DNA of 64,000 bases. Origin: Endozoicomonas montiporae CL-33. Its GTDB lineage: Bacteria; Pseudomonadota; Gammaproteobacteria; Pseudomonadales; Endozoicomonadaceae. Made by a program: the position numbers and the translations under genes. The stretch lies in assembly GCF_001583435.1 (NCBI RefSeq), contig NZ_CP013251.1:601001-665000 (forward strand), read 5' to 3'. The notes below the pieces were generated by a model. It ran no database searches and was not told the DNA's origin. It worked only from the letters and a program-made list of their open reading frames with translations. Below are positions 1,399-48,819 of the stretch, piece by piece. Numbering within the stretch: the stretch's first letter is position 1; every line of letters starts with the position of its first letter.

Positions 1399-1579
1399 CC
1401 AGCTGATTTTTTGGCGTTGGTAAAAAAATCAATCTCTTTCTGAGTCAATTCTGCACTTAAGCCTGAGTGGATAGCATTGATTCTTAATATCCTTGAGTGG
1501 TCTGACTTGTTCAGTCTGTCTACATAAGCCGAGTTGCGGTATTCTGTAGAGTCAACTGACAACCTGTTTTATTGTGGCC

Positions 1580-4486
1580 ATGCAAAGCACCCTACAAGAA
1601 GCTGAATTACCTATTGATGAAGCAACTGTAAGCCTGAAGACCCCACCTCATTCCATCGAGGCGGAACAGTCTGTTCTGGGTGGCCTGCTGCTGGATAACG
1701 AAGCCTGGGACAAGGTTGGGGACAAAGTGACGAGTGATGATTTCTACCATCCCCGTCACCGTATTATTTATTCAGCCATGGCCAAGTCTGCCAATGAGAG
1801 CCTGCCTTTTGATCCTCTGACACTGGCAGACACTCTGGATCGTCAGGGTGATCTGGATGATGCAGGCGGTATGCTGTACATCACCGAGCTGGTGTCCAGC
1901 GTGGCAGGCATTGCCAATATTGAAGCCTATGCCAACATCATTCAGGAGCGCTCGGTACTGCGCAAGCTGATTCAGACCAGCCAGAAAATTGCGGAACGAG
2001 CCTATAACCCTGAAGGCCTTAACAGTCAGGATGTACTGGATGAAGCTGAGCGTCTGGTTTTTAACATTGCTGAAGAGCGTCCCAAGACCGGTGGCCCTCA
2101 GGGTGTTCGTGAAATTCTCGACAATACCGTCAAGAAAATTGATGAGCTGTTTAATGCCGGTGATGCGATTACAGGTATAACCACTGGCTTTACGGATCTG
2201 GATAACATGACGTCGGGTATGCAACCGTCCGATATGGTGATTGTTGCTGCACGTCCGTCTATGGGTAAGTGCATTGTTGCCGGTAGTCGTGTTCTTGATC
2301 CTGAAACCGGAGCACTGGTTAAAATCGATGATATTGTTGCCAGAGAGTCCGGTGCATTGCTTTCTTTGGGAAATGATTTTCGTCTGCGCCCTGCTGCGCC
2401 CTCGGCTTTTGTTGATGATGGCTTCAAACCGGTATTTAAAGTACAGACTGCTTTGGGGCGTACCATCGAAACAACACTGACCCACCCATTCCTGTCTGCT
2501 GATGGCTGGCAGCCACTGGGTAATCTTAATGTGGGTGATGCCGTTGCGATACCAAGGGTTCTGCCTGTTTTTGGTCATGAGAGTCTGCCAGATCACAAAC
2601 TCCGGTTAATGGCCTATTTCATTGGTGATGGTGGAACAACACAGACATCCCTGCGCTTTACCAATAGTTCTGAGAGTGTACTGGAAGATTTTGTTGCCGC
2701 AGTTAATGCCTTTGATGGTGTTAAGTGTGTTCGTATTGAAGATGACAAGCGCACTCCTTCTGTAAGAGTGAGCAGTGATCTGGAGCAGGTTTCAAAAGCG
2801 CGTCAGCTGTTTTCGCAAAAACTGTCTTCATTAATGCAGGAAAAAGACATTACCGGGAAAGCTCTGGCGAGTACTCTGGATGTTGCAGAGTCCACCATCA
2901 GCTACTGGAAAAACGGTGAAGCGACACCGGCTGAAGAATACGTTCCCGTTCTCTGTCAGACCCTTGACGTCTGTACTAATGAATTATTTCCCTGTGGATA
3001 TGAGCAGTCCGTCTGGAATGATCAGAATCCATTGACGAAATGGCTGGAAACTCTGGGTCTAAATAACAGGCTGGCACATGAAAAAGCATTGCCTGATGTT
3101 GTTTATCAGCTTGAGAAAAGTGATATGGCAATGTTTTTGCGGCATCTGTTTGCCTGTGATGGCAGTGCATTTGTCCAGGGGAACGGTCAGTGTCGTATTT
3201 CTTATGCATCATCAAGCTATGAGCTGATTAAGGGCCTGCAGCACCTTTTGTTGCGTTTTGGTATTAATGCCAAAGTAAGGAAAAAAGTAAATGCCTATCA
3301 GGGGGAGGGGGCACAGGCAACTTATGAGCTGGAAGTACTGAGTCAGTCTTCTATTCGGGCATTTATTGACAATATTGGTATTTTTGCCAAAGAAGATCGA
3401 ATTAAAGCGGTTGAAAAAGAGCTTGCAGGAAAAACTGCTCACGACAACAGTGACACTCTGCCGGAGTCTGTTTGTGAGTATATTTTGAAGCTGAAAGGTG
3501 ATCGCAGCTGGAGAGAAATCTACACCAGTGCCGGTAAAGCCTATCCGGAGAACTACAACCCACATCTGACCGGAGTCAGCCGTCGGAGAATCAGTAGAAA
3601 GCGCGCAGCTTTGTTTTCTGAACTGTTCAATGACGATTATCTTCAGCATCTTGCCAGCTCAGATGTTTATTGGGACAAAATTGTTGCCATTGAACCACAG
3701 GGTGAGAAGCAGGTGTATGATCTGACCGTGCCGGACACCCATAACTTTGTTGCAGAAGACTTCTGTGTTCATAACACCACGTTCGCGATGAACCTGGTGG
3801 AGAATGCTTTGTTGAATACTGACAAAGGCATCATGGTGTTCAGTCTGGAGATGCCCAGTGAGCAGTTGATGATGCGTATGCTGTCGTCGCTTGGTCGAAT
3901 TAATCAGTCCAAAGTACGTTCCGGTAATCTGGAAGAAGAAGACTGGCCCAAGCTGGTGTCTGCCGTTGAGCGTATCAAGGACAAAAAACTGTTCATTGAC
4001 GACACTGCCGGCATCAGCCCATCCGAAATGCGTTCCCGTGCCCGCAGGATTGTGAGAGAGCATGGTGAACTGGGCATGATCATGATCGACTATCTGCAGC
4101 TGATGCAGATACCCGGTTATGATCAGGGACGAACCAATGAGATTTCTGAAATCTCCCGTTCTCTAAAAGCCATTGCCAAAGAGTTCAATGTACCGGTGAT
4201 CGCGTTGTCACAGCTAAACCGATCTCTGGAGCAGCGCCCTAACAAACGTCCGGTTAACTCTGACTTGCGTGAATCGGGTGCAATCGAGCAGGATGCTGAC
4301 GTCATTATGTTTATATATCGGGACGAGGTGTATAACCCCGATACGGAATACAAAGGCGTCGGTGAAATTATTATCGGCAAACAGCGTAATGGTCCTATCG
4401 GCTCGGTCAGACTGGCCTTTATCGGGCAGTACACCCGCTTTGAAAACCTGGCGCCTGATGCTTATAACTTTGATGACGATGAATAA
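1580..4486 (+). CDS. dnaB: Replicative DNA helicase DnaB, intein-containing
   Basis: DnaB is the hexameric 5'-3' helicase that unwinds DNA at the replication fork. The extein begins with the conserved PPHSIEAEQSVLGGLLLDNEAWD, followed by a linker and the RecA-like ATPase domain with Walker A ARPSMGK-TT, MIDYLQLM (Walker B) and LSQLNRSLEQRP. Exteins total about 468 residues, close to E. coli DnaB (471). A 502-residue intein interrupts the P-loop between Lys and Thr. The start could be ATG 1580 or an in-frame GTG at 1574; neither has a clear Shine-Dalgarno sequence. Splicing is required for function because the P-loop is split. The stop codon sits on the target duplication of a palindromic repeat (4487-4644). 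Confidence 0.97.
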   Translation: MQSTLQEAELPIDEATVSLKTPPHSIEAEQSVLGGLLLDNEAWDKVGDKVTSDDFYHPRHRIIYSAMAKSANESLPFDPLTLADTLDRQGDLDDAGGMLYITELVSSVAGIANIEAYANIIQERSVLRKLIQTSQKIAERAYNPEGLNSQDVLDEAERLVFNIAEERPKTGGPQGVREILDNTVKKIDELFNAGDAITGITTGFTDLDNMTSGMQPSDMVIVAARPSMGKCIVAGSRVLDPETGALVKIDDIVARESGALLSLGNDFRLRPAAPSAFVDDGFKPVFKVQTALGRTIETTLTHPFLSADGWQPLGNLNVGDAVAIPRVLPVFGHESLPDHKLRLMAYFIGDGGTTQTSLRFTNSSESVLEDFVAAVNAFDGVKCVRIEDDKRTPSVRVSSDLEQVSKARQLFSQKLSSLMQEKDITGKALASTLDVAESTISYWKNGEATPAEEYVPVLCQTLDVCTNELFPCGYEQSVWNDQNPLTKWLETLGLNNRLAHEKALPDVVYQLEKSDMAMFLRHLFACDGSAFVQGNGQCRISYASSSYELIKGLQHLLLRFGINAKVRKKVNAYQGEGAQATYELEVLSQSSIRAFIDNIGIFAKEDRIKAVEKELAGKTAHDNSDTLPESVCEYILKLKGDRSWREIYTSAGKAYPENYNPHLTGVSRRRISRKRAALFSELFNDDYLQHLASSDVYWDKIVAIEPQGEKQVYDLTVPDTHNFVAEDFCVHNTTFAMNLVENALLNTDKGIMVFSLEMPSEQLMMRMLSSLGRINQSKVRSGNLEEEDWPKLVSAVERIKDKKLFIDDTAGISPSEMRSRARRIVREHGELGMIMIDYLQLMQIPGYDQGRTNEISEISRSLKAIAKEFNVPVIALSQLNRSLEQRPNKRPVNSDLRESGAIEQDADVIMFIYRDEVYNPDTEYKGVGEIIIGKQRNGPIGSVRLAFIGQYTRFENLAPDAYNFDDDE
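2270..3775 (+). mobile_element. DnaB intein with LAGLIDADG endonuclease and internal HTH
   Basis: This protein-splicing element has 502 residues. Cys1 follows the P-loop lysine (tgc at 2270), block A reads CIVAGSRVLDPETG, block B contains TLTHPFLS (the TxxH motif), and the C-terminus ends VHN followed by Thr as the +1 residue. Two LAGLIDADG-like motifs are visible: LMAYFIGDGG (about intein residue 112) and FLRHLFACDGS (about 288). Between them, about residues 180-240, lies a Cro/CI-type helix-turn-helix (KALASTLDVAESTISYWKNG). Splicing residues are intact. Endonuclease activity is plausible because both motifs keep an acidic residue, but this is inference. Confidence 0.95.
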
Positions 4487-4644
4487 TACCAATTCCGTCT
4501 TCTAAACATGAATTGCGCAGCCAATCCAAACCGCTGGTTCTGCGTCAGAACTCCTCGCAATAGCCAGCTATTACTCGTCGTTCTTCCTTGCCCAGCGATT
4601 TGGATTGGCTTGCTCATGGTCATATTTAGAAAACGGAATTGGTA
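4487..4644. repeat. 158-bp palindromic element after dnaB
   Basis: This is a long imperfect palindrome. The ends are TACCAATTCCGT and its complement ACGGAATTGGTA, inner arms pair around GCCAATCCAAA / TTTGGATTGGC, and the centre is AATAGC-CA-GCTATT. The triplet TAA flanks it on both sides (4484-4486 and 4645-4647), consistent with a 3-bp target duplication; the left TAA is the dnaB stop codon. It has no believable coding content. It shares architecture and interior segments (CTTGCC, TGCTCAT) with 47788-47946. It may also act as a 3' hairpin for dnaB mRNA. Confidence 0.85.
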
Positions 4645-4664
4645 TAATCGTCATCAATACTACT

Positions 4665-11005: not shown

Positions 11006-11167
11006 CCCGAATATTTCATAAATTTGCTGCCAACTGTCAACAGCCCATGGAAATAGTGCTTTTTTACCAAAAATGCTTCGGACACATCAGTCCGAAGCCA
11101 TTGCAGGTACAAGCGAGAGTTTTCAAGGGATGTAGCAATAGCGCATGCATTTTATGAAATATTCGGG
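11006..11167. mobile_element. 162-bp MITE related to the IS1380-family element
   Basis: Perfect 17-bp terminal inverted repeats CCCGAATATTTCATAAA lie at 11006-11022 and, complemented, at 11151-11167. A 4-bp direct repeat TTAG flanks it (11002-11005 and 11168-11171). The same terminus begins the full-length IS at 50143, and IS1380-family elements make 4-bp duplications, so this is a non-autonomous derivative. It has no coding capacity. An internal hairpin CTTCGGAC...GTCCGAAG is present. The right target copy overlaps the AGGAGG ribosome-binding site of the next small gene. Confidence 0.92.
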
Positions 11168-45351: not shown

Positions 45352-47079
45352 GTGGAGCTTTTATCCGGTGCGGACATGGTGGTTCGCTCGCTGGCTGACG
45401 AAGGGGTCAAGCACATTTACGGGTATCCCGGGGGCGCACTTCTACACGTCTACGATGCCATTTTCCGACAGAAAGAAGTCACACATATCCTGGTTCGTCA
45501 TGAACAGGCTGCTGCCCATATGGCAGACGGTTATGCCCGGGCAACCGGAAAGCCCGGCGTGGCACTGGTAACGTCCGGTCCCGGTGCTACCAACACCATA
45601 ACCGGCATTGCCACTGCCTATATGGATTCCATTCCCATGGTGATCATTTCCGGACAGGTGCCTTCTGCTGGCATTGGTTCGGACATGTTTCAGGAAGTCG
45701 ATATGGTGGGCATTTCCCGCCCGATCGTAAAACACAGCTTTCTGGTGAAGCGGGCAGAAGATATTCCTGAAATCATTAAAAAAGCGTTCTACCTTGCCCA
45801 GACTGGTCGGCCTGGTCCTGTGGTGGTGGACATTCCGAAAGACATTACCGATCCGAACCTGAAGTTTGAATACCACTATCCTGAATCGGTAAAACTGCGT
45901 TCCTATACGCCACCGAGCAAAGGACATAACGGTCAGATTCGTAAAGCGGTTGACCTGCTGATGCAGGCCCGACGCCCCGTCATTTATGCGGGCGGCGGTG
46001 TGATTATGGGGAATGCATCTACCCAACTCACCCAGCTGGCAAAAGACCTGAAAGTGCCGGTCACCAATACACTTAACGGTTTGGGTGGATTCCCCGGTTC
46101 AGACCGTCAGTTTGTTGGCATGCTGGGCATGCATGGTAGCTACTGTGCCAACATGGCCATGCATCATGCTGACGCTATTCTGGCAGTGGGTGTTCGCTTT
46201 GATGATCGTGTCACCAACAATACGGCAAAATTCTGCCCGGACGCAAAGATCATTCATATCGATATTGATCCGGCCAGTATCTCCAAAAACATTACCGCCG
46301 ATGTGCCTATCGTTGGCCCTGTAAATGCCGTGCTGGATGGTTTCCTTCGCCATGTAACGGATTATTCCGGATCACGGGATCAGGAGGCCATTGATAGCTG
46401 GTGGCGTCAGCTGGATGAATGGCGTGACAGCCGTGGTGGACTGTTCCCTTACGACAAAGGCGACGGAAGCATTTTAAAACCCCAGCAGGTGATTGAAGCG
46501 TTATACGAAGTGACCGGAGGCGACGCCTTTGTAACGTCCGATGTGGGACAACACCAGATGTTTGCTGCCCAGTACTACCGCTTTGACAAGCCTAATCGCT
46601 GGATCAATTCCGGTGGCCTTGGCACCATGGGCTTTGGTTTGCCTGCTGCCATGGGGGTGAAATTGACTCACCCGGACGCAACGGTTGCCTGTGTGTCCGG
46701 TGAAGGCAGTATCCAGATGAACATTCAGGAACTGTCTACCTGTATGCAGTACGATCTGGGTGTAAAGATCATCAATGTGAACAATCAGGCTCTGGGTATG
46801 GTACGACAGTGGCAGGATATGCAGTACGACAGCCGCTACTCCCATTCCTACATGGAGTCACTGCCGAGCTTTGTGAAACTGGCAGAGTCCTACGGTCATG
46901 TCGGTATTCAGGTAACGACACCGTCTGATCTGCGTCCGGCCATGGAAGAAGCGTTCTCGCTGAAAGATCGTCTGGTGTTTATGGATATTCAGGTAGACGC
47001 CAATGAACATGTTTACCCCATGCAGATCAAGGATGGTTCCATGCGTGATCTGTGGCTCAGCAAAACGGAGAGAACCTGA
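45352..47079 (+). CDS. ilvI: Acetolactate synthase large subunit
   Basis: This ThDP enzyme makes acetolactate or acetohydroxybutyrate for Val, Leu and Ile synthesis. The product is 575 residues, starting GTG ([29 protein letters not shown]) after AGGAG. It has the FAD/ThDP marks [35 protein letters not shown], and the ThDP-binding [17 protein letters not shown]...[14 protein letters not shown]. The start matches E. coli IlvI closely. The small-subunit gene overlaps by one base. Confidence 0.97.
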
Positions 47080-47570
47080 TGCGGCGAATTATCTCTGTAC
47101 TGGTTGAAAACGAGCCGGGCGCTTTATCACGCATTGTCGGATTGTTTTCCCAGCGAAACTACAATATCGAAACGTTAACCGTTGCCCCCACTGAAGACAG
47201 CACGCTGTCTCGCCTGACGGTCACCACCAGTGGCAACCCGCAGGTGATTGAGCAGATCACCAAACAGCTGAACAAGCTGATTGATGTGGTGAAGCTGGTG
47301 GATCTCACCGAAGGCTCCCACGTTGAAAGGGAGCTGATGCTGGTAAAAGTGAGAGCCAGCGGGCCATTGCGGGCGGAAGTGAAACGCACGGCGGATATAT
47401 TCCGTGGGCATATTGTTGATGTGACCAGTTCCGTATACACCATTCAGCTGGTGGGCACACACGACAAACTGGATGCGTTTATAGAAGCTGTCGGTGCAAC
47501 CCAGATACTGGAAGTGGTGCGCAGTGGCATCACCGGTATTTCAAGGGGTGAAAAAACACTGAGCCTTTAG
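47079..47570 (+). CDS. ilvH: Acetolactate synthase small (regulatory) subunit
   Basis: The 163-residue ACT-domain subunit confers valine feedback. It starts [40 protein letters not shown], the typical IlvH N-terminus, and continues with the second domain (ELMLVKVRA...GHIVDVTSSVYTIQLVGTHDKLDAFI). The ATG at 47079 overlaps the ilvI stop (TGATG). The stop TAG is formed across the junction of a palindromic element, using two bases of the TTA flank plus its first G. Confidence 0.96.
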   Translation: MRRIISVLVENEPGALSRIVGLFSQRNYNIETLTVAPTEDSTLSRLTVTTSGNPQVIEQITKQLNKLIDVVKLVDLTEGSHVERELMLVKVRASGPLRAEVKRTADIFRGHIVDVTSSVYTIQLVGTHDKLDAFIEAVGATQILEVVRSGITGISRGEKTLSL

Positions 47571-47729
47571 AAGCTGTTCATGATCTTTTGAGGAAAGCGA
47601 AAATGGTGAGAAATTGTTGCTGTTTTTTGATCTCATGAGGCGCGTAGTGGTGCTACGCAACGAATGAGATCAAAAAACAGCAACAATTTATCGACATTTG
47701 CAGCCCTCAATAAGATCGTGAACAGCTTC
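47570..47729. repeat. 160-bp palindromic element after ilvH
   Basis: The ends GAAGCTGTTC...GAACAGCTTC are part of a 19-bp arm, the inner arm AAATTGTTGCTGTTTTTTG pairs with its complement, and the centre is GCGTAG-TGGTG-CTACGC. The triplet TTA flanks both sides (47567-47569 and 47730-47732). It has a different sequence from the 47788 element but nearly the same size and layout. It has no coding content. It separates ilvH from its apparent terminator at 47748. Confidence 0.85.
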
Positions 47730-47747
47730 TTAGTCTTTCCTTCGATA

Positions 47748-47786
47748 TTTACCGCAGAGATATAACTCTGCGGTAAATTCTCTCTT
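47748..47786 (+). terminator. Terminator hairpin, probably of ilvIH
   Basis: A perfect 12-bp stem, TTTACCGCAGAG / CTCTGCGGTAAA, with a 6-base loop is followed by TTCTCTCTT. It lies between two palindromic elements, 178 bp from the ilvH stop. Without the 160-bp insertion it would lie about 15 bp after the stop, which supports it as the original terminator. Confidence 0.7.
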
Positions 47787-47787
47787 A

Positions 47788-47946
47788 TACCAATCGCAAT
47801 AATTAGCTATTCTACTGCGCTGCCTTTTCAGCCGGTTATTCAGCGTTGGCATTCGTCGCCATAGCTACGGCTATGGCTTCTCACGCCGCCTTGCCTAACC
47901 GGCTGAAAAGGCATGCTCATCACGAAGCTAATTATTTTGATTGGTA
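47788..47946. repeat. 159-bp palindromic element after ilvY
   Basis: The ends are TACCAATC and GATTGGTA, with arms AATAATTAGCT / AGCTAATTATT and TTCAGCCGGTTA / TAACCGGCTGAA, and centre GCCATAGC-TACG-GCTATGGC. TTA flanks both sides (47785-47787 and 47947-47949); read on the minus strand the right copy is the TAA stop of ilvY. It belongs to the same family as the element after dnaB (same TACCAAT ends and shared interior CTTGCC and TGCTCAT). Confidence 0.85.
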
Positions 47947-48819
47947 TTACTGCTGATTCAGCAATGACCAGAAAGCCCTGATCAACGGGTTTTTCAGTTT
48001 CTTTTCCAGTACACACAACCCTACGTCGTAGGCTGGTAACCAGGGCTTTACGTCAATCACCTGAACTTTGTCAGACAATGGACTGTTATCCAAAACAATC
48101 TGTGGCACCACACCAATACCAAAACCCAGACTGACCATGCTGACAATGGCTTCGTTACCTGCCACCTGCGCATAAATTCTTGGTTTAATGTTTTTATTGG
48201 CAAACCACTGGTTAGTCCGGCGGCGGCTGATCCCTTTTTCCGCAAGAATCATGGGCGTAGCTGCCCAGTCCTGATCGTTAAACGGGTGTTTTACGCTGCC
48301 ATCCGCAGGTGCGATAAAAATCAGGGGCGACAGGCCAATGCTGTGAAACGCCAGCTCTGTCGGTAACTGGTCGGGACGGGCGGCAATGGAAATATCTTCC
48401 TGCCCTGAGAGAACATGCTGGATGGCCGGTTCCGGGTCACCGGTATGCAGTTTGATTTCGATGCCTGGGTAGCTTTGCCGGAACTGACTGAGGATGTCAT
48501 ACAAAAAGCTGTAACTGGCTGTCACCGAGCAGTAAACACTGATTTCTCCGCTCAGTTGTCCGGCGGCCGCCATAAGCTGGTTTCGGATGCCATCCCATTG
48601 TTGCTGAGCGTCTCTGGCGTATTCCTGAAACAGCAAACCTTCCCGTGTTAGCTGAACACTGCGGTTATCCCGTTCAAACAGAAGCACGCCCAACGACTCT
48701 TCCAATTGCTGAATACTCCGGCTCAGGGTGGAGGGACTGATATGGCAGGCAGCACTGGCGCGGCCAAAATGCAGGCTGTCAGCAAGGCTGAGGAAGTGCT
48801 TTAGCAGTCTGGTATCCAT
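47947..48819 (-). CDS. ilvY: LysR-type regulator IlvY
   Basis: The 290-residue protein has an N-terminal winged HTH (LKHFLSLADSLHFGRASAACHISPSTLSRSIQQLEESLGVLLFERDNRSVQLT) and an effector domain with YCSVTASYSFLYDILSQFR and SMVSLGFGIGVVPQIVL, which tracks E. coli IlvY throughout. It is divergent from ilvC with a 211-bp shared control region. IlvY activates ilvC when acetolactate or acetohydroxybutyrate accumulates; here it would control a class I (short) IlvC. Its stop codon coincides with a palindromic-element target site. Confidence 0.92.
   Translation of the reverse strand: MDTRLLKHFLSLADSLHFGRASAACHISPSTLSRSIQQLEESLGVLLFERDNRSVQLTREGLLFQEYARDAQQQWDGIRNQLMAAAGQLSGEISVYCSVTASYSFLYDILSQFRQSYPGIEIKLHTGDPEPAIQHVLSGQEDISIAARPDQLPTELAFHSIGLSPLIFIAPADGSVKHPFNDQDWAATPMILAEKGISRRRTNQWFANKNIKPRIYAQVAGNEAIVSMVSLGFGIGVVPQIVLDNSPLSDKVQVIDVKPWLPAYDVGLCVLEKKLKNPLIRAFWSLLNQQ

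Follow-up and report, generated by a model that had tools for sequence, protein, structure and literature searches.

The two palindromic elements located between ilvH and ilvY of Endozoicomonas montiporae CL-33 (elements 1 and 2) are miniature inverted-repeat transposable elements (MITEs) that have each generated a 3-bp target duplication of TWA (TTA or TAA). Both carry terminal inverted repeats, are too short to encode a transposase, occur in many copies, and are bounded by target-site duplications. It is highly probable that these MITEs were moved in trans with duplication of TWA, and that element 2 additionally contains a conserved core that has been selected as a folded single strand. In the mechanism that we propose, both elements would be non-autonomous and mobilized by DDE transposases that recognize their inverted ends, and a 3-bp staggered cut at TTA or TAA would lead to duplication of the triplet. 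The stretch analysed (the window) comprises 64,000 bp (positions 601,001 to 665,000 of NZ_CP013251.1) of the 5.43-Mb genome.

The features identified in the window are listed in Table 1. The lengths, positions, and TTA flanks given for elements 1 and 2 in the initial annotation were borne out, as were the formation of the ilvH stop codon by bases of the left TTA together with the initial base of element 1 and the use of the right TTA of element 2 as the ilvY stop codon. Element 1 has thus remade the ilvH stop from TTA and its own first base, G. Both elements are imperfect palindromes: the outer arms comprise 19 bp with 95% complementarity in element 1 and 22 bp with 91% in element 2, and the inner arms comprise 47 nt at 85% and 18 nt at 100%, respectively. 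The hairpin between the two elements is perfect, as previously described, but its stem is one pair longer than the 12 bp assigned to it. The length of the dnaB element, its TAA flanks, and the identity of the left TAA with the dnaB stop were also confirmed. Because of the length of the dnaB ORF and its matches to intein-containing models, this gene probably contains an intein. In contrast, the three elements do not form a single palindrome family as had been assumed; the dnaB element and element 2 belong to the same larger family with TACCAAT ends (TACCAAT family), whereas elements 1 and 2 differ in both family and ends.

Table 1. Features of the dnaB and ilvIH regions of the window. R2 is the covariance model of the core, and both elements with R2 matches shown here were included in its training set.
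Feature	Position	Strand	Description
dnaB	1574..4486	+	970-aa ORF; matches DnaB and several intein-containing models
TAA left of dnaB element	4484..4486	+	Target duplication; dnaB stop codon
dnaB element	4487..4644	+	158 bp; TACCAATT subfamily of TACCAAT family
Structured core in dnaB element	4521..4608	+	Model R2, 65.1 bits, E=3.1e-16
TAA right of dnaB element	4645..4647		Target duplication
ilvI	45352..47079	+	Acetolactate synthase large subunit
ilvH ORF	47052..47570	+	Longest reading; probable ATG at 47079; NCBIfam match
TTA left of element 1	47567..47569		Target duplication
ilvH stop TAG	47568..47570	+	Last two bases of left TTA and first G of element 1
Element 1	47570..47729	+	Family-1 MITE, 160 bp; ends GAAGCTGTTCATGATCTTTTG / GAAGCTGTTCACGATCTT common to IS5-family IS of same genome
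TTA right of element 1	47730..47732		Target duplication
Hairpin between elements 1 and 2	47747..47778	+	13-bp perfect stem, 6-nt loop; possible ilvIH terminator
TTA left of element 2	47785..47787		Target duplication
Element 2	47788..47946	+	TACCAAT-family MITE, 159 bp; half A first on + strand
Structured core in element 2	47823..47911	+	Model R2, 77.9 bits, E=3.9e-20
TTA right of element 2	47947..47949	-	Target duplication; ilvY stop TAA
ilvY	47947..48819	-	NCBIfam match

The copy numbers of both elements are far above chance. In total, 14 near-full-length copies of element 1 (family 1, with GAAGCTGTTC ends) that are 92-100% identical and nine near-full-length copies of element 2 (at least 85% identity) were identified in the genome, including the window copies. 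TACCAAT followed by ATTGGTA at a distance of 128-158 bases was found as 38 pairs (two overlapping), compared with none for the backwards pattern, and 32 of these pairs are exactly 158 or 159 bp in length. In other genomes of the class, the exact TACCAAT...ATTGGTA pattern occurs 0-6 times per genome, near the control counts. The family-1 end pattern was found in three scattered stretches across named genomes, in a search from which the records of CL-33 itself were possibly excluded.

Identical TWA triplets flank 10 of the 14 family-1 copies and 41 of the 50 TACCAAT copies examined, and one further TACCAAT copy is flanked by TGA on both sides. TTA and TAA flanks were each found with both element orientations. 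In 571 kb of sequence from this genome, including pieces picked around known copies, inverted ends between equal TTA/TAA triplets were detected for these families and for two other entries of the scan. One TACCAATC element (1167458-1167617) is nested within a TACCAATT element with TAA on both sides (GACGAG/TAA/TAGC), and seven of nine other TACCAATT loci searched (among L060-L074) contain the uninterrupted sequence GACGAGTAATAGC. In a relative whose ilvH is 79% identical (G008), ilvH ends in CTTTAA and ilvY in a single TTA, and neither a 160-bp palindrome nor an R2 match was found in the ilvH-ilvY interval. The closest relatives (G005, G007, and G009) are uninformative on this site because another gene is located downstream and ilvH ends in TGA. 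The duplicated flanks, the nested copy at TAA, and the G008 interval, which has one TTA at each of two stops and no palindrome, support the mobile palindrome targeting TTA/TAA that was initially proposed; the G008 interval is an orthologous site of the single-TTA kind for which the initial annotation suggested a search.

The TACCAAT family also includes 32-bp miniature elements consisting of nearly the ends alone and flanked by identical TTA or TAA triplets (L194, L195, L196 from position 1503 onward, and genome position 4453655). Other members (503613, 1511343, 1537628, and others) contain an extra insert of ~18 bp with a small hairpin in one half; such elements are about 176 bp long, or 193 bp where more is inserted.

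An 841-bp IS bounded by TTAGAAGCTGTTC end sites is located at 1369110-1369950 of the genome and encodes a 263-aa IS5-family transposase (NF033580, E=2.5e-70; PF13340 and PF01609). This transposase was the sole near-identical full-length protein match, the remainder being diverged (28-44% identity) or short remnants. Among the named hits, it shares 85% identity with a protein from an Endozoicomonas MAG and 69% with the ISAba15 family cluster; two closer hits without names are 93 and 89% identical. The IS and the family-1 MITE have 21 bp in common at the left end and 18 bp at the right end, and the T/C difference between the left and right IS ends is retained in 12 of the 14 family-1 copies. Beyond the ends, the interior of the MITE has no match to the IS by eye. 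The flanks of the single intact IS are TTA on the left and TAA on the right, and its own duplication is thus not clean. A second IS5-like IS of 883 bp, flanked by TTA on both sides and containing ORFs of 133 and 98 aa, shares its first ten bases with a 160-bp MITE that is also flanked by TTA/TTA. From the shared ends, we strongly infer that element 1 was moved by the transposase encoded within the 841-bp IS, which would be its most likely mobilizer. No TACCAAT-ended IS was present among the end sites listed (about half of 202), and no TACCAAT pair was found around the IS5-like loci examined.

The location of all copies exactly on stop codons, which holds for the three copies in the window, does not extend to the whole genome. 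The copies with identical TWA flanks were used for counting (52 in total: 10 family-1, 41 TACCAAT, and one GAGGC copy), of which one was too near the stretch end and two were on stretches lacking the 3' end of any gene, leaving 49 scored copies. Gene ends were taken from ORF calls of 90 aa or more rather than from curated annotation, and the count leaves out four family-1 and nine TACCAAT copies with other flanks (including the TGA/TGA copy), one of which, at 4179345, touches a TGA stop, as well as a 96-bp family-1 remnant at 5081300, which lies on a TAA stop. The TWA site is an exact TAA stop in 10 of the 49 copies, compared with an expectation of 5.9% (148 of 2524 non-coding TTA/TAA triplets; P about 5e-4), with the ilvH site, one base off, scored as not exact. 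Among the 21 sites that lie no more than 60 bp from the 3' end of a gene, 10 are exactly at the stop (20.6% expected, P=0.005). The other 39 of the 49 sites lie elsewhere, and one of 16 sites in same-genus genomes is exactly on a stop. The preference for stop codons amounts to a modest enrichment seen in this genome only; the predicted genome-wide bias is present to this extent, whereas the idea that copies are retained only at stops is wrong. The initial view that the palindromes target gene ends without destroying genes agrees with the location of 46 of 47 copies outside ORFs, many of them near 3' ends, but not with the proportion of exact stops. As only 2524 of the 11324 TTA/TAA triplets in the sample are non-coding, the near-absence of copies from ORFs indicates that selection against gene disruption dominates. 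Insertion would probably be broad across TWA sites, with selection removing the copies within genes, and copies on TAA stops may be tolerated and over-represented because insertion there rebuilds the stop.

Two other explanations for the location of the elements were considered. A transposon that targets stop codons, with a transposase recognizing gene ends, would account for the two enrichments at TAA stops. It appears scarcely credible in view of the large majority of sites found elsewhere, the near-absence of exact stops in same-genus genomes, and the nested insertion, which obeys the same TAA rule in non-coding DNA; moreover, selection is able to account for the excess. Stop-codon targeting as a rule was rejected. 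The elements could also be cis-acting RNA elements of 3'-UTRs, i.e. terminators or stabilizers kept because they help the upstream gene. Consistent with this, 30 of the 49 sites lie within 120 bp of a 3' end (41% of control sites), a weak bias towards the sense orientation of the upstream gene is present in this genome (23:10, P=0.035), and the available portion of PMC2718517 reports a tail-to-tail bias of MITE-like repeats in Pseudomonas fluorescens. However, the sense bias is absent in relatives (5:7) and declines to 28:17 (P=0.14) when these are added, and both orientations occur at exact stops (three with half A first and four with half B first). The ilvIH region already has its own hairpin, and the palindrome is absent downstream of the ilvH orthologues inspected, making a 3'-UTR role distinctly unlikely.

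The structure of the core was shown by covariation and by its distribution. The two halves of the TACCAAT elements differ at fixed motifs (TTGCGC and CTGCGTT in half A; TGAGCA and CAAGGC in half B), and the stretches between these motifs vary strongly, in both halves together, across subfamilies and relatives. The core hairpin contains conserved asymmetric internal loops, GCGTT opposite CCTTG and TCGCAATAG opposite CTATTACTCG, whose columns rank with the best conserved ones both within this genus and out to other proteobacteria. In alignment A1 (28 TACCAAT elements from four genomes), 94.6% of the cells are paired, compared with 77.5% in shuffled alignments and 35-41% with slid structures, and the covariation score is 0.467 (0.172 shuffled). 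In core alignment A2 (32 sequences, comprising 26 of 29 class loci and six from this genome or the same genus), 86.3% of the cells are paired (60.6% shuffled, 31-42% slid), with a covariation score of 0.577 (0.144 shuffled). Compensatory changes were found in 30 of 52 pairs in A1 (25.1 in shuffles) and in 19 of 25 pairs in A2 (17.4 in shuffles, with 18 of 500 shuffles reaching 19), and neither alignment had more further pair types than its shuffles. Because changes are shared within subfamilies, independent events are fewer than cells.

The two strands of the core are not equivalent. With half A read first, A.C mismatches outnumber G.U mismatches by 44:6 in A2 (24 of 32 sequences versus one), by 37:3 in 29 class loci, by 29:7 in 29 phylum loci that had no role in model training, and by 44:26 in 37 copies from this genome (alignment A3 was fitted to the core model R2). 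A.C mismatches on this strand correspond to G.U wobbles on the opposite strand, on which half B comes first and which reads 5' ..GGCAAGGCG..GACGAGTAATAGC.. 3'. The half-B-first strand also has the lower predicted folding energy in all 29 class loci and in 28 of 30 phylum loci. The same strand is preferred when DNA parameters are used (28 of 29 class loci and 28 of 30 phylum loci), so that RNA and single-stranded DNA are not told apart. No strand asymmetry was found in A1, which contains 46 G.U and 43 A.C mismatches (13 sequences one way and nine the other). Thus, the mismatches and the predicted folding energies for the most part point to the same strand as the one that folds, and we infer that the core was selected as a folded single strand, half B first, in the form of RNA or single-stranded DNA. 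On this strand, one internal loop can be read as GACGAGUA opposite UGCGAGGA and could form tandem G.A pairs.

Complementarity between the arms may also arise without function. Long near-palindromes are known substrates of template switching during replication, and such quasipalindrome correction would copy one arm onto the other. Although the near-identity of the arms within single elements and the lack of strand bias in A1 fit this process, it should wipe out the asymmetric internal loops that are among the most conserved columns, and under it the two strands should be equivalent in mismatches and folding energy, which the bias observed in A2 and A3 contradicts. Template switching without function is therefore an unlikely explanation, and we retain the reading of a core selected as a folded strand.

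The distribution of the core was examined with two models whose E-values are rough and whose copy counts are lower bounds, scoring having been capped at 8, 11, or 134 candidates per genome, namely the full-length model R1 and R2, a covariance model of the central 88 positions that was trained on R1 matches. With R1, matches at E<=1e-4 were obtained in 42 of the 368 other class genomes sampled, and most of the matches listed span the full model. R2 matched 106 of 398 genomes sampled in the phylum, representing 52 of 213 genera, as well as 20 of 33 relatives, CL-33 being included in both sets. At least 127 copies were found in G020, at least 88 in CL-33, and at least 57 in G003, and none in G008. 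The core centres of the fetched loci are GCGTTG...TCGCAATAG / CTATTACTCG...GCCTTG with variations, and the ends that surround them differ; the ends of some core loci could not be placed. Core-bearing elements with TACCCGT, TACCTCT, TACTCGT, and similar ends have TA on both sides in eight of 11 cases, others are flanked by CTAG (TGTCCTGTCCC, TGTAGTGAGT, and GGGGCGTTCTCAATC) or by TTAA (GGGCACCCTCTATT), and further types of ends occur. In G010, which belongs to the same family, a GGAGCGTTCTCAATC end behind CTAG was found on one side. A BLAST search with one core (L230) detected seven plasmids of Burkholderiales (Cupriavidus, Comamonas, Diaphorobacter, and Mitsuaria), and the other three of four core queries had no match in the plasmid search. 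All four plasmid loci fetched were matched by R2 (E 1.7e-15 to 1.6e-12) outside the listed genes.

The core of element 2, with arms that covary around conserved asymmetric loops, is conserved well outside this genus and is found between different transposon-like ends. A broader interpretation is that the core is a phylum-wide mobile hairpin module, strand-specific as folded RNA or single-stranded DNA, that has repeatedly taken different transposon ends (TACCAAT/TWA, TACCCGT/TA, and several types with CTAG or TTAA); selection would then act on the core as the lineage rather than on the ends. We put this forward tentatively, as a reading that is plausible but on balance not favoured.

Family 1 was considered as a further member of the core superfamily and rejected. 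Its centre is similar by eye (CGTTG opposite GAGGCG), but R2 at E<=0.05 had no match to the family-1 copies in the window, L001, L004, L013, and L014; R1 without filters gave E=2e-4 on the minus strand and 0.0025 on the plus strand. A centre similar by eye is also present in the GAGGC MITE L115:197-356, to which R2 has no match. In addition, L042:1145-1312 is a CTAG-flanked palindrome with GAGCCTGTCGG ends located within a TACCAATT element; its centre is core-like by eye, and no R2 match was found.

The usual view of a bacterial MITE is that of a decayed interior enclosed by IS ends, whereas here it is the interior that is conserved across a phylum, its arms covarying while the ends change. 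Among eukaryotic elements, Tourist MITEs belong with PIF/Harbinger elements. The latter differ from the present elements in host and generate the same three-base duplication of 5'-TWA-3' according to the available text of PMC4482050, which also discusses their relation to bacterial IS5 and gives ANT as the IS5 target. Family 1 resembles MITEs derived from IS5-family ISs (NF033580; ISAba15-like protein hits) in sharing ends with an IS of the same genome, but its target is TWA with a 3-bp duplication, whereas the Paracoccus IS427 group mostly generates 2-bp duplications in the portion of PMC3281130 consulted. ERIC, YPAL/RU-2, Correia/NEMIS, and Coxiella QMITE2 are alike in being 100-200 bp long, largely intergenic, and able to form long hairpins, as described in excerpts of PMC2229807 and PMC5896051. 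The duplications given there (TA, 3-26 bp for YPAL, and 7-11 bp for QMITE2) differ from the 3-bp TWA, and ERIC/Correia, with TA duplication in PMC2229807, was ruled out on this basis. REP/BIME, characterized in the accessible part of PMC3733652 by a 20-40 bp unit, a GTAG or CGTC tag, and RAYT, was likewise rejected, as most copies are 158-160 bp in length with target duplications. In the text available from PMC2718517, the R0, R2, and R6 repeats of P. fluorescens each have a core enclosed by inverted repeats, matches to IS ends are given for R0 and R2, and a tail-to-tail bias is noted; R6 (177 bp) may belong to the core superfamily.

No match at the gathering score of any Rfam model was found in the window or in the 20 loci searched (19 with the core and one from a plasmid). 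Matches at loose E-values (microRNA, snoRNA, sRNA, and other models) were all far below the gathering scores and were rejected, the best being MIR2646 on element 1 (E=5e-7; 39 bits, where 245 would be needed to reach the gathering score). Similar sizes and hairpins, but no core common to elements with different ends, are reported in the excerpts of a 2024 MITE review and of the literature on ERIC, YPAL, Correia, QMITE, and the P. fluorescens repeats, and a literature search yielded no description of the core in the text portions returned. A search of the literature with DNA strings gave no bacterial-repeat title among the matches listed. If confirmed, the core would represent a widespread transposon-carried structured element without an Rfam match, and the annotation of short palindromic repeats would change.

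The window contains two additional features. A different palindrome of 162 bp with CCCGAATATTTCATAAA ends and TTAG on both sides is located at 11006-11167 and gave an R1 match of E=0.19 only. A repeated stretch at ~53541 and ~58121, with ORFs of 93 and 104 aa and more copies in the genome, is perhaps another insertion sequence.
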